Assembly: GCA_021432635.1 (NCBI GenBank)
Contig: MU270037.1
Span: forward strand, 877,191-941,190
Direction of reading: 5' to 3'
DNA: 64,000 bases
DNA from: Thozetella sp. PMI_491
Lineage: Eukaryota > Ascomycota > Sordariomycetes > Chaetosphaeriales > Chaetosphaeriaceae
How positions within the stretch are numbered: the stretch's first letter is position 1; every line of letters starts with the position of its first letter. The position numbers and the translations under genes are program-made. Below, piece after piece: positions 26,398 through 46,618 of the stretch. Under the pieces are notes generated by a model. That model saw nothing but the letters and a program-made list of their open reading frames with translations, was not told where the DNA came from and made no database searches.

Positions 26398-27019
26398 ATG
26401 GCAGCTGCACCAAGACTCGCTTCCCTCGATGTAAGCCCATTGATGATGCCGTGGCTCGCCAGGGGCGAGAGTAAAGCAAGCTAACGAAACTCCCTAGAGC
26501 TCGATCATTGATCGGCTACCCGCCTACTCTCGGGTTCTCTTTGCCGCGAAGACGGCCAAGGGCCTCACCTTTGAGCAGATCGGCCAGAAGCTCGGGCGCA
26601 ACGAGGTAGCCGTCGCGGCCCTCTTCTACGGGCAGGCCCAGGCGTCGGAGGAAGATACCCAGAAACTGGCAGACATCCTGGGTATCTCGCACGACGGCAT
26701 CGCGCCGCAGCTGATGAGCAACCCGGACCGGGGCAGGGCCGGCCCCATGCCTCCCGTCGAGCCCCTCATCTACCGCCTGTACGAGATTGTGCAGAACTAC
26801 GGGTATGCCTACAAGGCCATCCTGAACGAGAAGTTCGGCGACGGCATCATGAGCGCCATTGCCTTCAGCACCAAGGTGGAGAAGGAGGTGGACGAGACCG
26901 GCACCACCTGGGTGAACATTTCCCTGCGCGGCAAGTGGTACGTTGCGCCTCGGTCCCGAGTCTGTCCTGCAGCCAAGTCCCTTACTAACTCGTGTAGGCT
27001 CCCTTTCTCAAGGTTCTGA
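26398..27019 (+). CDS. Cyanate hydratase (cyanase)
   Basis: Converts cyanate and bicarbonate to ammonia and CO2 (via carbamate), detoxifying cyanate and releasing usable nitrogen. Exons are 26398-26430 (11 codons), 26498-26937 and 26998-27019, giving 164 residues, near the usual 156-160. The N-terminal half is a helix-turn-helix-like bundle ([21 protein letters not shown]). The C-terminal catalytic domain has Y-R-L-Y-E-I-V-Q and [11 protein letters not shown]. The three catalytic residues are predicted to be Arg104, Glu107 and Ser130, with the same spacing as Arg96/Glu99/Ser122 of the E. coli enzyme. The last exon adds only the conserved end L-P-F-S-R-F after G-K-W; without it the protein would run into the intron. 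The enzyme forms a decamer with active sites between subunits. Confidence 0.96.
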
Positions 27020-27266
27020 TCCTTGGGCGCATATGGAGAGCTCCTCGTTTCAAGCGTGGGTTGCTCGAGGGAGCGATGCGGCTGCTGCGACCATCCATGC
27101 CGGCTCACACCCCATGCAGCGCGCCAATTGGGACGGAGCGTCTCCCGGCTTGATAGGTTATAACAACCCCTTTCTGCGGCGATGCATTGGTGTTTGTTCG
27201 CGATCCTTTCCTTGGTTGGATTGTGTGTAGGTGGTGTGCTCGGGAGACAAAAAAGTGACGGGGATA

Positions 27267-27292
27267 AAGGGAACAATACTAAGGGAACAATA
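27267..27292 (+). repeat. Tandem pair of AAGGGAACAATA
   Basis: Two identical 12-base copies at 27267-27278 and 27281-27292, separated by two bases. Each contains AACAAT, which resembles the core site of HMG-box (Sox/mat-type) proteins. It lies about 700 bases upstream of the pheromone ORF and 250 bases after the cyanase stop, so it could belong to either the promoter or the cyanase 3' flank. Regulation is an inference. Confidence 0.4.
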
Positions 27293-27837
27293 TCAACACA
27301 CGCTCACTTTTACGCCACCGCCCACATGTCACATAGGTGCTTCTCAGATTAAGAAAGAAAAAGCCATATGCTCCCAAAGATGCGTTCCTGCCGCCTGGGG
27401 TCAGTAGTCCATGACAGGCACAGAAAGAACAGCCCTTCTAGACTTCTTGGCCACGAGGAAGCCCGTTCCGCGTCTCCTTTGCATGCTGGACCCATCCTGC
27501 GGGCGCCTGGCCGCTTCTTGGGCAAAGGAGTAGAAGAGAATAATAGTAAGAAAACAATATTGCCTCATCCCTCGCAGATGACGGTCACTCCACCATGCCT
27601 TGCTATTTCTTTTGTTCCTTGGCAGTAAGCGTAGGCAAGGGATGGTTCTCGAACGGCCGGAGAGGAGAAGACACCCCGGTTCAAACTGTCCACCTAGTGG
27701 TTGTTATCTGGGTTTGGAAAGGATTGGTGTACACATCCACGACCTCGACCACCTCAGGGAAATAATAGGAGGCGCACTGCATTATCTGCCCAAGGAGCCA
27801 ACAGCGACCGGTGAGAGAGCCTCAGGTAGGACTCACT

Positions 27838-27845
27838 TATAAAAG
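27838..27845 (+). promoter_or_regulatory. TATA box of the pheromone precursor gene
   Basis: TATAAAAG is followed after about 30 bases by a C/T-rich leader with CTCTC and CATC repeats, and by the ATG at 27989. This layout is typical of highly expressed fungal genes. Confidence 0.6.
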
Positions 27846-27988
27846 AATCTCTCCTCGCCTGCCTTTTCAATCCTGAACTCTCTCTTCTCCATCATTCTCG
27901 CAACCATATACACTCTTCATCATCCTCCCTCGACCACAACACCTACCCCCGTGATCAACCATCGCAAACCAAACCCAAAACATACAAA

Positions 27989-28063
27989 ATGCCTTCCCAG
28001 CCGATCACCAAGAAGATCCCCCAGACCACCATGCAGGCCAACGGCTACTGCGTTGTCATGTAA
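27989..28063 (+). CDS. mfa-1: Lipopeptide (a-factor-like) mating pheromone precursor
   Basis: A 24-codon gene with no intron, from ATG at 27989 to TAA. The product starts M-P-S-Q-P-I-T-K-K, has a central Pro-Gln-Thr-Thr-Met, and ends N-G-Y-C-V-V-M. The C-terminal C-V-V-M is a CaaX box: the Cys would be farnesylated, V-V-M removed and the new end carboxyl-methylated. The mature peptide is presumably a short C-terminal fragment exported by an Ste6-type transporter and sensed by the Ste3-type receptor (PRE-1 class) of the opposite mating type. Length, the central P-Q-T-T-M and the N-G-Y-C-V-V-M end match the MFA-1 pheromone precursors of Neurospora and relatives as known to me. A clear TATA box and C/T-rich leader precede it. 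The gene is shorter than normal ORF cut-offs. Confidence 0.9.
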   Translation: MPSQPITKKIPQTTMQANGYCVVM

Positions 28064-29602
28064 ATGACACCAGTACGGCCTCGCGAACAATGGAATCGGC
28101 AAACTCAGTTGACTGCTCGGCAACATATCTTCTTCGATCTGGCGGCAGCGGTAGTCCTCCTTCCTCGAGGCTACATTTGGTCAAAGGCTGCCACCTCGAC
28201 TCCGGCGAGCACGCCTGACATCCATCAAAGTAATCACTTTGACTCTGCGATCCCTTGTCCGCTTATAAGTGCCAACTGGCCGGGCTTGCTGCTGCTTTGT
28301 GGTCAAGCTCAACGCATAACCGACTGTCGCTCACCAAACCGAGATCAACCGGCACATTTTCCTTCCATCACGACATAGTCGTTATGATTTGCATATATCT
28401 CGATCGGAAAATCATAAATAACACCAAAAAAAGTTTCCTACCTTCTGTTGGTAGCTCGTTGTTGCAGCTGTGACGCCTGACAGGCTAGCGAGCCACACAA
28501 CACCGGAAGCATGTCTCCGCCTTCAGCCGCGAGAAAACCTTTCCCACTTAGCTGCCTTAGGGGCAGACCAGACGGGGTCTTCTACTCTCATACAGGTAGC
28601 CCATCACGATCTTCATCATGTTGATTGTGGTGAAGAGAGGTTAGCGCGGCGGCATTTGCTTCTCTCTGGACTTCTCGTGCTGCCTTTAAGGTTGATGTAG
28701 ACTTTTGTAGCTTGCTCACAATACTGGTTGATCTCATGGTATTTCCGCTATGCTATGCTGTTACGTGACATGGTGCTACGTGATGCTATCTAGACAAGAG
28801 GCGTAGGATCCGTTGTAGGCGAACTCTTGTCTCCCCCGCTTAGGATTTGAGTGTGCATTGCCACTCGATTAGGCCATGCAAGCCTGAGCCGCAAGTATGC
28901 ATATTGGTTCAGTGCGGTAGTACAGTCGCGTGTTGGTGGTGTCGTTAGCCGCCTAGGCTGCTCCTTTCGCCACTCGAGTTCCTTGTGCGCTGCATCAATC
29001 CTAATCAGGATGCGATTGGGAGGGGAAAGAATACACGGCCGCACCAATGATCACACCAACAAGATGGGGAAAGAGGCAAATTGCACCCAATATACCAGCC
29101 ATCTTGAGAGATAATACATACAAAATAGTGCCTTTATTGAGAGGCGGGAGGGTGTAGTGGATGTTGGACAGTTGGTAGGAAGCACATCTACCTTCTGGTA
29201 CGATGAGCGTTGCGTCTCCTTTCGAGTATAAACATAACGAAGCAGGGTTAGGGTTTAGCTTGGTCTGTCGTCGTGGTCCTCGTCTCCCTCCACCTGCGGC
29301 CTTGACCGCCTTTTCAGTGGAGAATCCCCTTCAGCACCGCCCGACGGGGGCAAACTTATAGGCTTGTTAGCCTTCTATTGGCGAATACTGCCGGCAAAAC
29401 TTTGGCGGGGAGAAATTTCGAGGTCGCTCGAAAAAAAAAGTTCTGGAGCTCGGCGGGCGTCTACTTCCAGAATTTTGTGCAGCACGAGGAAGGTTCTTCA
29501 CTCGATAGCGGCCCGACTTTTTCGCAATTGAGTAGCGCAGCCCGCAATCCCTCCTGCCAGAGAATACTCCAAAATTCTTCTCCCTAAGAAGCTCTTGCCA
29601 GA
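28064..29602. other. Spacer between pheromone gene and EBP2
   Basis: No gene is supported. The first part is probably a long 3' UTR of the pheromone mRNA, common for this gene class. The section from about 28.4 to 29.1 kb is lower in GC. The telomere-like box near 29250 is listed separately. Confidence 0.45.
29244..29257 (+). promoter_or_regulatory. Telomere-repeat-like box (AGGGTTAGGGTTTA) upstream of EBP2
   Basis: This 14-base stretch contains two TTAGGG-type units about 345 bases upstream of the EBP2 start. Tbf1-type Myb factors that recognise TTAGGG are known activators of ribosomal and ribosome-biogenesis promoters in several fungi, so a regulatory role for EBP2 is a reasonable inference, not shown here. 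Confidence 0.45.
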
Positions 29603-31156
29603 ATGAAGCTCAAGGCTAAGAGCAGATTACAGGCCGCGCTGCTCAATGAGCAGGGCAAAGGGCCTAAGATCCTGAACCAGCTCGAGAAGAAGCGGGCGAA
29701 AGCGAGCCTCAAGACCAAGGGAAAGGACGACGTGGACGAAGTCGACCAGCCTTCTCACGATGCAGACGATTGGGAGGACGAGGAGAGCGACGAGGATTCC
29801 GCTAATGAGCTTCTGGACGTTGCCGCCGCCGAGGGCGAATCCGACGAAGAGGAGGAGGACGACGAAGACGAGGAAGATGTGGACCAATTAAACCTTGCCT
29901 TCGACAGCGCCGAAGAGACGTCAGACTCCGAAGTCGAAATGGAGAAGCCGCTGCCACGAGGCAAAGCGAAACAGAAGGCCGCTAAAGTAGAAGACGACGA
30001 GGACGACGAAGAGGAAGACGAAATCGATCTCGAGGAGATCGAGGACGACCTCGATAGCGAGGAGGAAGCGGATATTATCCCCCGAGTCCGGACCACAATC
30101 AACAACCACACTGCTCTTGATGCTGCAGTAGCTCGCCTGAGCTTCGTCAGCGCCGGCACCCCCTTCGCGGTACACCAATCGCTCCTCTCTAGCAAGAAGA
30201 TGGAGGACGCGGAAGATTTCGACGTACAAGATGACTTGGTAAGGCAGCTGTGCCGTCTGGATCTTATAAGGACCGTCTGCTAACTGTCTGAGTAGAAGCG
30301 AGAGCTGGCATTCCACGCCCAGAGTCTGGAAGCTGCAACCAAGGCCAGGAGTCTGCTCTTGAAGGAGAAGATCCCATTCACACGACCGAATGACTACTTC
30401 GCAGAGAGTAAGTTGGCTTCCGTGCCCCTACCAACACGACTTCTCAAAACAGGACCGAGGGCGCCCTCTCTGTCTCGAGCGGTCGCATAGAACGTCACTC
30501 TGGCTAACGGTTTCGGTTGCAGTGCTGCGGAGCAACGAGATCATGGACAAGGTTAAAGCCAAGCTCATTGAGCAGGCCACCAACAAAAAGGCTGCTACGG
30601 AGGCGCGCAAGCTCCGCGACCTTAAGAAGTTTGGCAAGCAGGTTCAGGTCGCCAAGCAGCAGGAGCGCGCGAAGCAGAAGAAGGAGGCACTAGAGAAGAT
30701 CAACTCTTTGAAGCGAAGTATGTCGCCCTTGAACTGTGTTTCCCCAAGTTCCCCGCTTCTCCCTTTGCCCCCATATAACTACATATACTGACCCTGCTCG
30801 CAGAACGCCAGGAAGGTGGGTCCGCCCACCTGGGCACCAAGGAGGCCGACGACATGTTCGACGTTGCTGTCGAGAACGAGCTCGGGGCATCCGGTCGGAA
30901 GAACCGCGGCGACAAGCGGTCCGCCGGCCGGGGCAGCTTCGGTGGCGACCGGGAGCCAAACGCCAAGCGGCAGAAGAAGGACGCCAAATACGGCTTCGGC
31001 GGCAAGAAGCGGCTCAACAAATCGGGTGACGCCATGTCCTCCAGCGACCTGAGCGGCTTCCGCGCCGGGCGCATGAAGGGCAAAGGGGGGACTGGCGGTG
31101 GCAAGAAGACGCCGCGGCTGGGGAAGAACAAGAGGGCGGCGGCGGCACGGCGATGA
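29603..31156 (+). CDS. EBP2: rRNA-processing protein EBP2
   Basis: Nucleolar factor needed for 27S pre-rRNA processing and 60S subunit assembly, ortholog of yeast Ebp2 and human EBNA1BP2. Exons 29603-30238, 30296-30407, 30523-30717 and 30804-31156 give 431 residues. The N-terminal 170 residues are basic, then extremely acidic (long Asp/Glu runs). The conserved EBP2 core spans exons 2-3: K-R-E-L-A-F-H-A-Q, E-K-I-P-F-T-R-P-N-D-Y-F-A-E-M, then the Lys-rich helix with L-R-D-L-K-K-F-G-K-Q-V-Q. The C-terminus is Gly/Lys/Arg-rich (K-Y-G-F-G-G-K-K-R and a final R-A-A-A-A-R-R), typical of this protein. The exon 2/3 junction rebuilds the Met codon of F-A-E-M-L. Confidence 0.96.
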
Positions 31157-32628: not shown

Positions 32629-34509
32629 TCATTGCGTGGCCGCAATGCACCAGTGTCGGTGAAATGCCCAGGCGCTCTTCTGGCATTCCTTGCTGCAGTA
32701 CTTGGTTCGTCGACAGCGACGGCATTTGGCAAACTGTCTTGTGAACTCTTCCCACTTGCCACATTGGTAGTAAGCGCACTGGCGGATGCCTCCCCGGCTG
32801 TCGTCCTTGCGGCACAAGTTCCTCATAACAACCCCGGCCCAGTATTGCATGTCCGTGCTATGGTGTCGGACGGTGAACTTCTCCACGAGGGGAAAGATGT
32901 TCAGGTCATTGGGGAGCAGATACTCCTCGTCGCACTCGTCCTGGGCCGCGTCCAGCTCCTTCTCGATCGCGGCCGGGTCGGCACCATCGAGCAGCTGAAG
33001 CTCCTTGCCGATCTTGAGTTTCGGCACCAGGTGGCTGCCCTGGAAGTACTTGCGCAGGTTACAGTACTTGGAGACGTAGGCGAGGAGCTGCAGGGACATG
33101 AGGACGTCCTCTTCCCGGGGCATGGCGGCGAGCATCTGGGGATGCGGCTGCACCTGGCGGTCGAGGAGGTATCGAGGGACGTTGGTGTTGGGCAGCGTGG
33201 GCTGCGGCGGGGAAACCATGGCAGGTCTGTTGGGAGACAAGCCGATGGTCGGGACGGGAGTCGGCGTTGTGTTGACGAAAGTACCATCGACGGGACCCCG
33301 GTGAGTAATGTTGAAGGTTCCGGCTTCCTGGGCTTCAGATGCCTCAAGGGCCGCGCCGGCCATGATGCTGTCGCCGTCCTCCATAGTGATGTCTTGGATG
33401 CCCACAGCCGGCTGAATCTCAGTGGTCCCAGACATCTCGGCATCAGGTGCCTCGTCCGACTGGATGGGGTCCGGCAACACGTCTTCAGCCTCAGCCACCG
33501 ATGAGTGCTGGTGGCGGATGGATGGGCGCCTTCTCGACTGGGTCGTAGGCGTCAGCATTGAGGCCGGACGCACGGTAGGAGAGCGGATCTGCGGCGGGGG
33601 GAGGGGCGTGGTGGGCGATGCAGGCTGAGACGCCAGGTTGGTGTGAAATTCCATCATGGACGTTAGGTTGTCAATGTTCCGGAGGGGCATGGGCACAGGG
33701 CGGGTGAAAGCATCGCCGGCAGTACTCATGGATGGCAGGGAGGATGCCAAAGCCTGGACTGGGCGAGACGGCGAGTTGATAGCCTGCCGGGATCCGGGGT
33801 TGCGATGGCCGTGGTGATGGTGGTGATGGCCCCTGTGGCTAGCGAAAGCGGAGCCTTCTGCGGGTGAGACGACGGCCGAGAACTGAGCAGCAGTCGGCGT
33901 GGCGTCTGCGTTGGACTGTACGACTGTGGCCGCAGGGCTCGGCAGGGCCGCTACCGAGATGTCGATGGAAGGGGGAGGAGCCTGTCTCCTGAAGGAGCGC
34001 TGGTCGACGTCGAGGCGACCGGACCGGCTAGAAAAGGTGGACGACTTTGACACGCGACCGTGCTCGTGACTCCGGTGCCGGTGAGAGCTCTCTGCCTTTT
34101 GCTTCTCCTCGGCCTTCTCCCTGCACTTCTCGATGACCTTGATATAATTGTCGAGAATGGTAGCAATGACGGGGACCATGTCAGCCTCGACAACGCGGGT
34201 CCGGACCGCCTCGGTGCCCCTAACGCCTATGTTGACGACGCATTGGAAGGCGAGGTTCCATTTCCACATGTCCATCATATCTTTACTGCGACCCTGCTTC
34301 AGGATGCAGACCAACCTCTCGATGCCGCCATCGACTGTGAGGATGTCACGTATGCGGGCTGACGAGGTTGTGAGGTAAGCGAGGTGGTTGAGCGAGTTGA
34401 TTAGGGGGAGGGTCGACGTGCAATCGAGAGCCCGGCGGTCGTAGAGCGCGGTGGTGATGCCCACCGACGCCTTATTGACGTTGGGGATGCTGAAGTTGAC
34501 TTCCCTCAT
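32629..34509 (-). CDS. samB: MYND-type zinc-finger protein samB/Mub1
   Basis: A single exon of 626 residues. The N-terminal 140 residues (N-F-S-I-P-N-V-N-K-A-S-V-G-I-T-T-A-L-Y-D-R-R-A-L-D-C onwards) form an armadillo-like helical region characteristic of the Mub1/samB family. The middle is Ser/Pro-rich with a His tract (R-G-H-H-H-H-H-H-G-H). The C-terminus is a MYND zinc finger with Cys578, Cys583, Cys596, Cys599, Cys605, Cys609, His617 and Cys621 (C-x4-C-x12-C-x2-C-x5-C-x3-C-x7-H-x3-C). Yeast Mub1 works with the ubiquitin ligase Ubr2 to degrade the proteasome regulator Rpn4. In Aspergillus nidulans samB affects polarity, septum position and conidiophore development. The start at 34509 is supported by the conserved M-R-E-V-N-F-S-I-P. 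Confidence 0.93.
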   Translation of the reverse strand: MREVNFSIPNVNKASVGITTALYDRRALDCTSTLPLINSLNHLAYLTTSSARIRDILTVDGGIERLVCILKQGRSKDMMDMWKWNLAFQCVVNIGVRGTEAVRTRVVEADMVPVIATILDNYIKVIEKCREKAEEKQKAESSHRHRSHEHGRVSKSSTFSSRSGRLDVDQRSFRRQAPPPSIDISVAALPSPAATVVQSNADATPTAAQFSAVVSPAEGSAFASHRGHHHHHHGHRNPGSRQAINSPSRPVQALASSLPSMSTAGDAFTRPVPMPLRNIDNLTSMMEFHTNLASQPASPTTPLPPPQIRSPTVRPASMLTPTTQSRRRPSIRHQHSSVAEAEDVLPDPIQSDEAPDAEMSGTTEIQPAVGIQDITMEDGDSIMAGAALEASEAQEAGTFNITHRGPVDGTFVNTTPTPVPTIGLSPNRPAMVSPPQPTLPNTNVPRYLLDRQVQPHPQMLAAMPREEDVLMSLQLLAYVSKYCNLRKYFQGSHLVPKLKIGKELQLLDGADPAAIEKELDAAQDECDEEYLLPNDLNIFPLVEKFTVRHHSTDMQYWAGVVMRNLCRKDDSRGGIRQCAYYQCGKWEEFTRQFAKCRRCRRTKYCSKECQKSAWAFHRHWCIAATQ

Positions 34510-36690
34510 GCTGGATGGCTCCGGCGACGCACGCAGAAGGCACCAGGTCAGGGGAAGGGGTTGAAGGGAGGACGCCGGGTGTCTGGCGGCGATGGCAGCG
34601 GATGTGTCTGCACGATTCTAGGTATATTGCGAGAGACGTTGGATGGTAGCCCCTGCTTGGGGTAATGAGGATGGCCGCGTTTTGGAGGTTTATGCGTCAA
34701 TGGGAGACGAAATTGGAGGGAATGCGTGGGTTTGGCCAAAATTGGGCGGGCGCTGGGCCTGGGACGATGCTCGGGCCCTGGCGACGCGACGGCAGTAGAC
34801 AGGGAGAAAAGAGTCGGCAATGGATGGAAGGCTCGCCGAGGGAATGAAAATTGGCGATGTCGGATGAGAAAGGTAGTAGATGAGGGAGGGCTGGCAGATG
34901 AAAGAGGCCCCTGGATCACGTCGGTCGACTCTGGGCGCTTCCGGGTCGAGTCAGGGTCGAATACTTGGGGGTCTCACGTCGGAGTCGGGTCTGTCTGGGA
35001 CTCGAAGCATTCGAAGGCGCGGTCAGGGGAGAAAGAAAGACATGAAATTCGCAGGCTTCGCTGGAGGAGGTTAACAGAGAGGATATGGCGAAGCGAAGGA
35101 GAGAGAGGAATACTTTTTTTTGGCTGCGTCGTCCTCCCGTGCCTGGTGAAGAGAGGCTGGGCTGGTGGATGGAACAAGGCCCGAGTGCAGAGGGCGGAAA
35201 AAGCTGGGTTTTTGCGCTCCTCGCTCCAATTTCAAAAGCTGGACCGGAAGAGTGGGGCCCGGCTGCACCACCCCAGAACGCTGCTGCCTGAGGCCACAAC
35301 AAGCCGTTTTAACTGCCCCTCCGCATGGATTTGCAAATGGCGTATCACTTTGTCAATGGCAAGCGCGGGCGCGACTAAATATATGAGAGGAGGCGAAAGC
35401 AGAATCTTCTCGGGCCCCTCCCAAAGTGAAAAAAAATAAAATAACAATAATGCGATTCGCCTGGCTGGCCACCAACTTTTTCCTTGGGGATGACCGGGCA
35501 AGACGTGACGACAGCGCGTGATCAGTCAGCAGGAGCGAAGGTCGAAGAAAGACGAAACAAACCACGCTGACGCCGGTTCGGGAGGCCTAGCGAGGAGAAT
35601 GCGCGATTCTGATTCTAGCGGGGGTTGGCTTTTTAGGGGGCGCCGGCAGCCGATGTCCCCCTTTCTATTTCTATGAAAAAGACCCGCCAGAGGTATGGCC
35701 ACACGAGTTACGTAGGGTACGTACGGTACACTATACAGCACAACCTCCGCGCGCCGATAGAAGGGGGCGAAATTCGGTAGAAGTCCCCTCCCGGGCGACC
35801 GATCGAAGCGCGATAGCCCCGACCTTCCATTCCGCCCCAAGCCCAAGCGGGAAGCTTGGGGAAGGGCCGTAAAGGTCATCTCCACAAGTCACATCGCCAG
35901 GAGAATGCGCCTACATGCTTGCTAAACCCCTCGGGGGCGTCGTGCCCCATCGCCCCCCCTTTGTTCCAAGGGACGTCATTTCGCAATCAATCGGCTGCTT
36001 CGGTGTTGGGAAAGGGGAGAGGGAGCTACTTTCGGGTGAGCCGCCTGCTCCTGATGGACCTCTTGGTCTATTTTTCTTTCCTACTTCAATTTAGTCCCAG
36101 TGCCCCATCCCCCACGCCTCCTCTTTCAGGCCTCGGACGCGCCAGGCCGCCGAGGCCCTGCACGCGATATCGCACTCTTTCAGGCCCCGGCGGTCTGGAG
36201 TGGAGAGTGGCTTGTCTTCCTGCCTACCCGCCTGCCCGTCAGGTCCGTGGGCACTTTAGGTGGGGGGGAAGACAGGTAGGGGTTCTTCGCTCAAAGGACG
36301 CCACGCCCGAAACGCAGACAGCAGCCTAGCAGGAGGGTTGTGGCCTTGCCGATGGGCACGGCACTGTTTTCGTTGCTGCAACATTGCTAAGGGATCTCAG
36401 ACGCGCTGAGTCTAATTCATATAAGTCAAGTCCACCGAAGCCCTTCTCTCCCGTAGCCGAGGGGGGGCGGCCGTATGTCTTGAAGCGTCGTTGCGCACGC
36501 CTGGAACAACCTGGAGCTTTTTTTTTTTTTTTTCCCTTGTCGAGATCATGCCATTCTCTTCCCTCCCTACCTTCCCCCCGTCGTTTCCGTGCAACGCTCG
36601 CCTAAGGTAAGGTACTCGGCTTGTCGGGGGGTCTGACTGCACCGCACAGCGGTGCACACCAATTCGCTTCCTGGCGCTGCATCGAGGGCC

Positions 36691-46358: not shown

Positions 46359-46618
46359 ACGATGCATATACCCCGGAATATTCAAGACGAAAAGCAAATT
46401 TTAGGACGCATTGTAAACATGTAGCGATGGTTTGCTCGTCTACAGCGTTGTCTAGCACCTTAGACTATTAGTCGCAAAACATGGGGTACTTTTAGTGCTG
46501 CAGCTGGATCAATCAATCGGCCACATTCTGGGTATGCCTGGCCCTTTGCGCGAATCTACGCTGAGAACGCATGTCGTATGAAACAGAACAAAGCTCCGGG
46601 TCGTCTATATATATATAC

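Follow-up and report, generated by a model that had tools for sequence, protein, structure and literature searches.

Between a cyanate lyase gene and a homologue of EBP2, the DNA of Thozetella sp. PMI_491 analysed here (64,000 nucleotides, referred to throughout as the window, with positions counted from its first letter) contains a very short open reading frame (ORF) of 24 codons. Judging from its sequence, its locus and the pheromone system of the same genome, this ORF is almost certainly the a-factor (mfa) pheromone precursor gene of a Sordariomycete, a confidence that concerns the identity of the gene and not its present use. The ORF and the signals belonging to it are the following.

27989..28063, + strand: putative a-factor (MFA-type) lipopeptide pheromone precursor, 24 amino acids, MPSQPITKKIPQTTMQANGYCVVM (frame, pattern, shuffle and codon tests)
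28049..28060, + strand: CaaX motif CVVM at the C-terminus with TAA next to it; farnesylation predicted from the methionine end (sequence; methionine rule of PMC3068285)
27838..27843, + strand: TATAAA, 151 bases 5' of the ATG (motif search)
27851..27988, + strand: probable 5' leader, its first part C/T-rich, with no ATG ahead of the start (base composition, reading by eye)

The frame runs from ATG to TAA on the plus strand (27989-28063, 24 codons and the stop) and translates as MPSQPITKKIPQTTMQANGYCVVM. The product has the build of the family, being short (24 amino acids, fewer than 100) with CVVM directly before the TAA and with Gly-Tyr preceding the CaaX cysteine (NGYC). According to PMC10569646, GY ahead of the CaaX box is conserved across Sordariomycete a-factors, and PMC3068285 associates a CaaX box ending in methionine with farnesylation. 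Upstream, the TATAAA at 27838 is the sole plus-strand match within 27001-29000, the fraction of C/T reaches 0.75 in 27851-27910 as against 0.38-0.50 in four 60-base windows starting at 27701-27791, and no ATG was found by eye in the sequence leading from the TATA box to the ORF. The initial annotation, which had pointed to this ORF, to a TATA box with a C/T-rich leader and to a product ending N-G-Y-C-V-V-M, is borne out on each of these features. The G+C content at third codon positions (GC3) amounts to 0.92 over the 24 codons, compared with 0.60 in the window's 2151-amino-acid ORF and 0.49 in the open frame that lies past the stop.

How often such a frame might arise by chance was assessed on the 493 frames of 15-60 amino acids present in the window (on either strand, counted from the first ATG that follows a stop), with two null models, dinucleotide shuffles of the window and shuffled versions of the intergenic stretch between cyanase and EBP2 (27020-29602); the motif classes were chosen after the ORF had been seen, and the chance figures are accordingly post hoc. 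The strict end C[VIATLS][VIL]M was found in one of the 493 frames, namely the pheromone ORF; of 600 shuffled windows 5 held such a frame, as did 2 of the 5000 intergenic shuffles. Loose CaaX ends are uninformative, since the three observed among the 493 frames are close to the chance expectation (mean 1.85 over 60 shuffles). At 46578 of the window, a short frame of repeated Cys-Val resembling the product of a TG-type microsatellite imitates a CaaX end. When the frames were scored against the a-type precursor of C. globosum (MPSTTTQTKVPQSTNFNGY, PMC3068285), the pheromone ORF came first of the 493 with a score of 43, the runner-up reaching 27; the best scores of 60 shuffled windows averaged 29.7 with a maximum of 41, and 43 was attained in one of 600 further shuffles. 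A frame scoring at least 30 exists in 119 of the 5000 shuffled intergenic stretches, and the combination of such a score with the strict CaaX end in none of 600 shuffled windows. This similarity measure relies on one reference, the C. globosum precursor, which was printed without its CaaX residues, so that the end is not counted twice. At the level of sequence, similarity by itself is moderate evidence and, in combination with the CaaX end, strong evidence. The gene also appears to be single: the assembly of this fungus (72,315,471 bases in 157 contigs) yielded one match to the protein at E-values up to 0.001, and the pattern GYC[VIM][VIM]M followed by a stop occurs at one site in these 72.3 Mb, where the reversed control pattern occurs at none.

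Among the known peptides, that of N. crassa, which entered none of our counts, is 24 amino acids long with the same PQTTM and CVVM as here and a differing N-terminal half, and the a-factor of P. anserina likewise departs from the 24-mer in its N-terminal half. Both have GY before the CaaX box (PMC10569646), as in the 24-mer, and the genes of both share their locus with cyanate lyase, EBP2 and a MYND gene (PMC3068285), as here. The C. globosum precursor, whose gene also lies 3' of cyanate lyase, shares with the 24-mer the MPS start, the K-[IV]-P-Q-[ST]-T core and NGY at its printed end, and differs at residues 4-8, 10, 13 and 15-17, the CaaX residues missing from the printed sequence (PMC3068285). 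The initial annotation had noted that the N-terminal half of the peptide is unlike the versions known: it is indeed the most divergent part with respect to C. globosum, but hardly a remarkable one, as the putative a-factors of Leotiomycetes also diverge more at their N-terminus (PMC10569646). No signal stretch was seen by eye in this N-terminus. The a-type precursor of M. grisea (MSPSTKNIPAPVAGARAGPIHYCVIM, PMC3068285; MF1-1 in a table of PMC6562746) is short, ends in Y-C-V-[VI]-M like the 24-mer and is encoded 3' of cyanate lyase as here (PMC3068285), whereas the sequence printed there has no PQTTM core and is two residues longer. More distant are the h-type precursors of hypocrealean fungi (HPP1), which have a CaaX/CpaX end like the 24-mer and of which HPP1 is needed for male fertility; HPP1 carries its motif three times and has two Kex2 sites, in contrast to the single copy and aliphatic CVVM found here (PMC3068285). 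The 24-mer, with one CaaX motif, does not fit an h-type (hybrid) precursor, which is defined by three (LI)GC(TS)VM copies with Kex2 sites (PMC3068285).

The genes surrounding the pheromone ORF are those of a described locus.

26398..27019, + strand: cyanate lyase gene (PF02560, 5.9e-30; 6xgt, 5e-60; the scan covered 26498-27019, a start at 26398 and short introns towards either end being presumed)
29603..31156, + strand: EBP2 homologue in the open frames 29603-30283, 30390-30791 and 30779-31156 (PF05890, 3.4e-22)
32629..34617, - strand: MYND-finger protein gene, fourth member of the locus (PF01753, 4.7e-08)

Of the two EBP2 frames scanned, the second (30390-30791) holds the Ebp2 match and the first (29603-30283) is without a match. 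Cyanate lyase, the pheromone ORF and EBP2 follow one another on the plus strand, and the MYND-finger gene comes next on the minus strand; the window thus contains all four published members. In several Sordariomycetes, PMC3068285 (2010) places cyanate lyase, the a-factor gene, EBP2 and a MYND-finger gene at one locus, with the a-factor genes of N. crassa, M. grisea and G. zeae near cyanate lyase and CaaX precursors 3' of cyanate lyase in C. globosum, M. grisea and P. anserina; order and orientation differ between genera. The site is not universal, since the a-pheromone of Ceratocystidaceae occupies a different, laccase-linked locus (PMC13037118). The placement beside cyanase and EBP2 given by the initial annotation is thus correct, and the mating determinant among housekeeping genes to which it pointed is nothing odd, as several Sordariomycetes are known to keep their a-factor genes there (PMC3068285). 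Repeats in the intergenic stretch consist of one inverted pair and two short families of two copies each, which look like chance, and the tRNA scan returned none. Scans of bacterial type over 27500-29000, which have little meaning in a fungus, gave one promoter-like site against a shuffle mean of 1.1 and five terminator-like hairpins against a shuffle mean of 1.1 (standard deviation 1.0), the latter above the shuffles. Elsewhere in the window, the Mgm1 product matches the mitochondrial dynamin chain 6ql4, presumably from Chaetomium, over query residues 29-849 (1201.6 bits).

The remainder of a pheromone system can be recognised in the same assembly. The STE3 receptor family is represented on contig C93 by a pair of exon matches (best 2.8e-48). 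Each of them reports one stop, and both stops fall at the touching ends of the matches, in a presumed intron; STE2 gave two exon matches without stops on C37 (best 4.1e-67). The alpha-factor pattern W-C-x3-G-Q-x-C-W has four exact matches on C21 and its reversed control none, which defines one further feature.

L029 4787-5638, contig C21, - strand: alpha-factor precursor, 284-amino-acid frame with four copies of WCQIRGQSCW and Lys-Arg sites (pattern; N-terminal signal stretch by eye)

Concerning the processing enzymes, the ICMT family has four matches and the Rce1 family one in the assembly; both families are broad, their controls also matching in 5 of 14 and 11 of 14 prokaryotes, respectively.

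As regards the mating type, the assembly holds ten HMG-box matches at nine places. One of these genes, on C57, has an intron within the box (2.4e-18 once the exons were joined by eye) and stands next to an APN2-like exonuclease/endonuclease gene (PF03372, 5.8e-13) and APC5 (6.7e-36), together with a weak COX6A match (0.0036, below the cut-off). APN2-like, COX6A and APC5 genes are the usual surroundings of MAT in Sordariomycetes, as is SLA2 on its flank. Because of its split HMG box and its neighbours, we take the C57 gene to be MAT1-2-1. By eye, no SLA2-like frame was recognised among the listed long frames of C57 245000-264999 (20 kb), where no SLA2 family search was made. About 0.3 kb from the start of MAT1-2-1 and divergent to it lies a 339-amino-acid open frame (L015 2966-3982, minus strand), with no Pfam match at 0.1 and not among the results of the MAT1-1-2 family search. 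This frame might be a MAT1-2 gene specific to the lineage, or else a MAT1-1-2 that has diverged. For MAT1-1-1, PF04769 had no match in the assembly, an empty answer that shows nothing by itself as no fungal positive control was available; likewise without such a control, an alpha-box probe gave none at E-values up to 1, and the MAT1-1-2 family gave one match below the cut-off (E 4.79) on another contig. With MAT1-2-1 found and MAT1-1-1 not found, the genome fits, without proving, a MAT1-2 strain of a heterothallic fungus; it may also belong to a homothallic fungus whose MAT1-1-1 was missed or is unlinked. Taken together, these mating genes and the Mgm1 match point to a Sordariomycete. The initial annotation had deduced a heterothallic or formerly heterothallic fungus from the a-factor gene, and this deduction fails as logic, for homothallic F. 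graminearum and S. macrospora carry an a-factor gene as well (PMC10569646), so that possession of one does not imply heterothallism.

Because the similarity to C. globosum, the locus and the pheromone system of the same genome agree, the MFA-type identity proposed at the outset is well supported. Several points weigh against it. The peptide found no Pfam family at E-values up to 1 and no solved structure at E-values up to 10, and the sole published reference sequence lacks its CaaX end in print. A Ser/Thr-rich N-terminal part is named for many members of the a-factor family (PMC10569646), and this trait is weak in the 24-mer, whose first nine residues, MPSQPITKK, include a single Ser and a single Thr. 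Finally, MAT1-2-dependent expression of the ORF is assumed by analogy with other species.

In S. cerevisiae and in Sordariomycetes, the established a-factor route passes through farnesylation, removal of aaX, carboxymethylation, N-terminal trimming and export, up to recognition by an STE3-type receptor on trichogynes. If the 24-mer follows this route, Cys21 would be farnesylated, VVM would be clipped off and the cysteine carboxymethylated, and the N-terminal part would be removed, perhaps after the Lys-Lys at residues 8-9. The resulting lipopeptide, ending in NGYC-farnesyl-OMe, might then be exported from MAT1-2 male cells and be sensed by the STE3-type receptor on MAT1-1 trichogynes.

It is conceivable, though unlikely, that the a-factor gene is intact in sequence and out of use in mate attraction, the fungus being asexual or pheromone-independent, a situation that overlaps with the identification given above. 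Sequence alone cannot reveal use, and pheromone-independence has been proposed for some Leotiomycetes: PMC10569646 reports three in which pheromone expression is independent of mating type, and for this reason a mating function should not be presumed. On the other hand, the presence of precursors for the two pheromones, of the two receptor families and of MAT1-2-1 suggests upkeep of the system, and the stops reported in the STE3 matches fall in a presumed intron.

A second question concerns the sequence that follows the stop codon, where another frame is open.

28064..28378, + strand: 104-amino-acid open frame, its ATG directly after the pheromone TAA and in the same frame; read as 3' untranslated sequence, without coding signature

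Its codon score of -0.018 is ordinary among 181 frames of 90-139 amino acids (mean -0.016, standard deviation 0.049), by a measure that is weak, the window's known genes scoring only 0.04-0.09. Folding of 28064-28560 is not unusual (z-score -0.41, 33 of 100 shuffles being equally stable), and Rfam has no match in 27000-29620. A coding extension was accordingly rejected for want of codon bias by this weak measure, and a structured or known RNA past the stop on account of the fold and Rfam results. That the region 28.06-29.0 kb, including the in-frame 104-amino-acid opening, constitutes a functional 3' part of the gene is improbable, the codon bias, fold and Rfam tests of the stretch past the stop giving no support; if it were true, the transcript of the a-factor gene would also act in female development, independently of the pheromone. 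We give hardly any credence to a longer protein arising from read-through of the stop or translation of the 104-amino-acid frame, as the ATG right after the TAA and the 104 open codons in the same frame are offset by a codon score like that of other frames, by the drop in GC3 from 0.92 to 0.49 and by the fact that read-through would hide the CaaX end internally. Just as implausible is a short intergenic frame that has its CaaX-like end by chance: loose CaaX ends are frequent by chance and the N-terminal similarity is only moderate, as the shuffles described above indicate, but these same shuffles seldom produce the strict end and never its combination with a score of at least 30, and the position is that of the published a-factor locus, with a GC3 of 0.92.

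The pheromone ORF is therefore best regarded as what its sequence and surroundings indicate, one more ordinary a-factor gene of a known family at a described locus. It adds an a-factor gene too small for gene callers to pick up, and with it the strain's matching alpha-factor, its two receptor families and its MAT1-2-1, and it agrees with the published locus rule by which the a-factor is sought between cyanate lyase and EBP2. For those who work on this fungus, it indicates which mating type the strain probably has and supplies a peptide to synthesise for mating assays.
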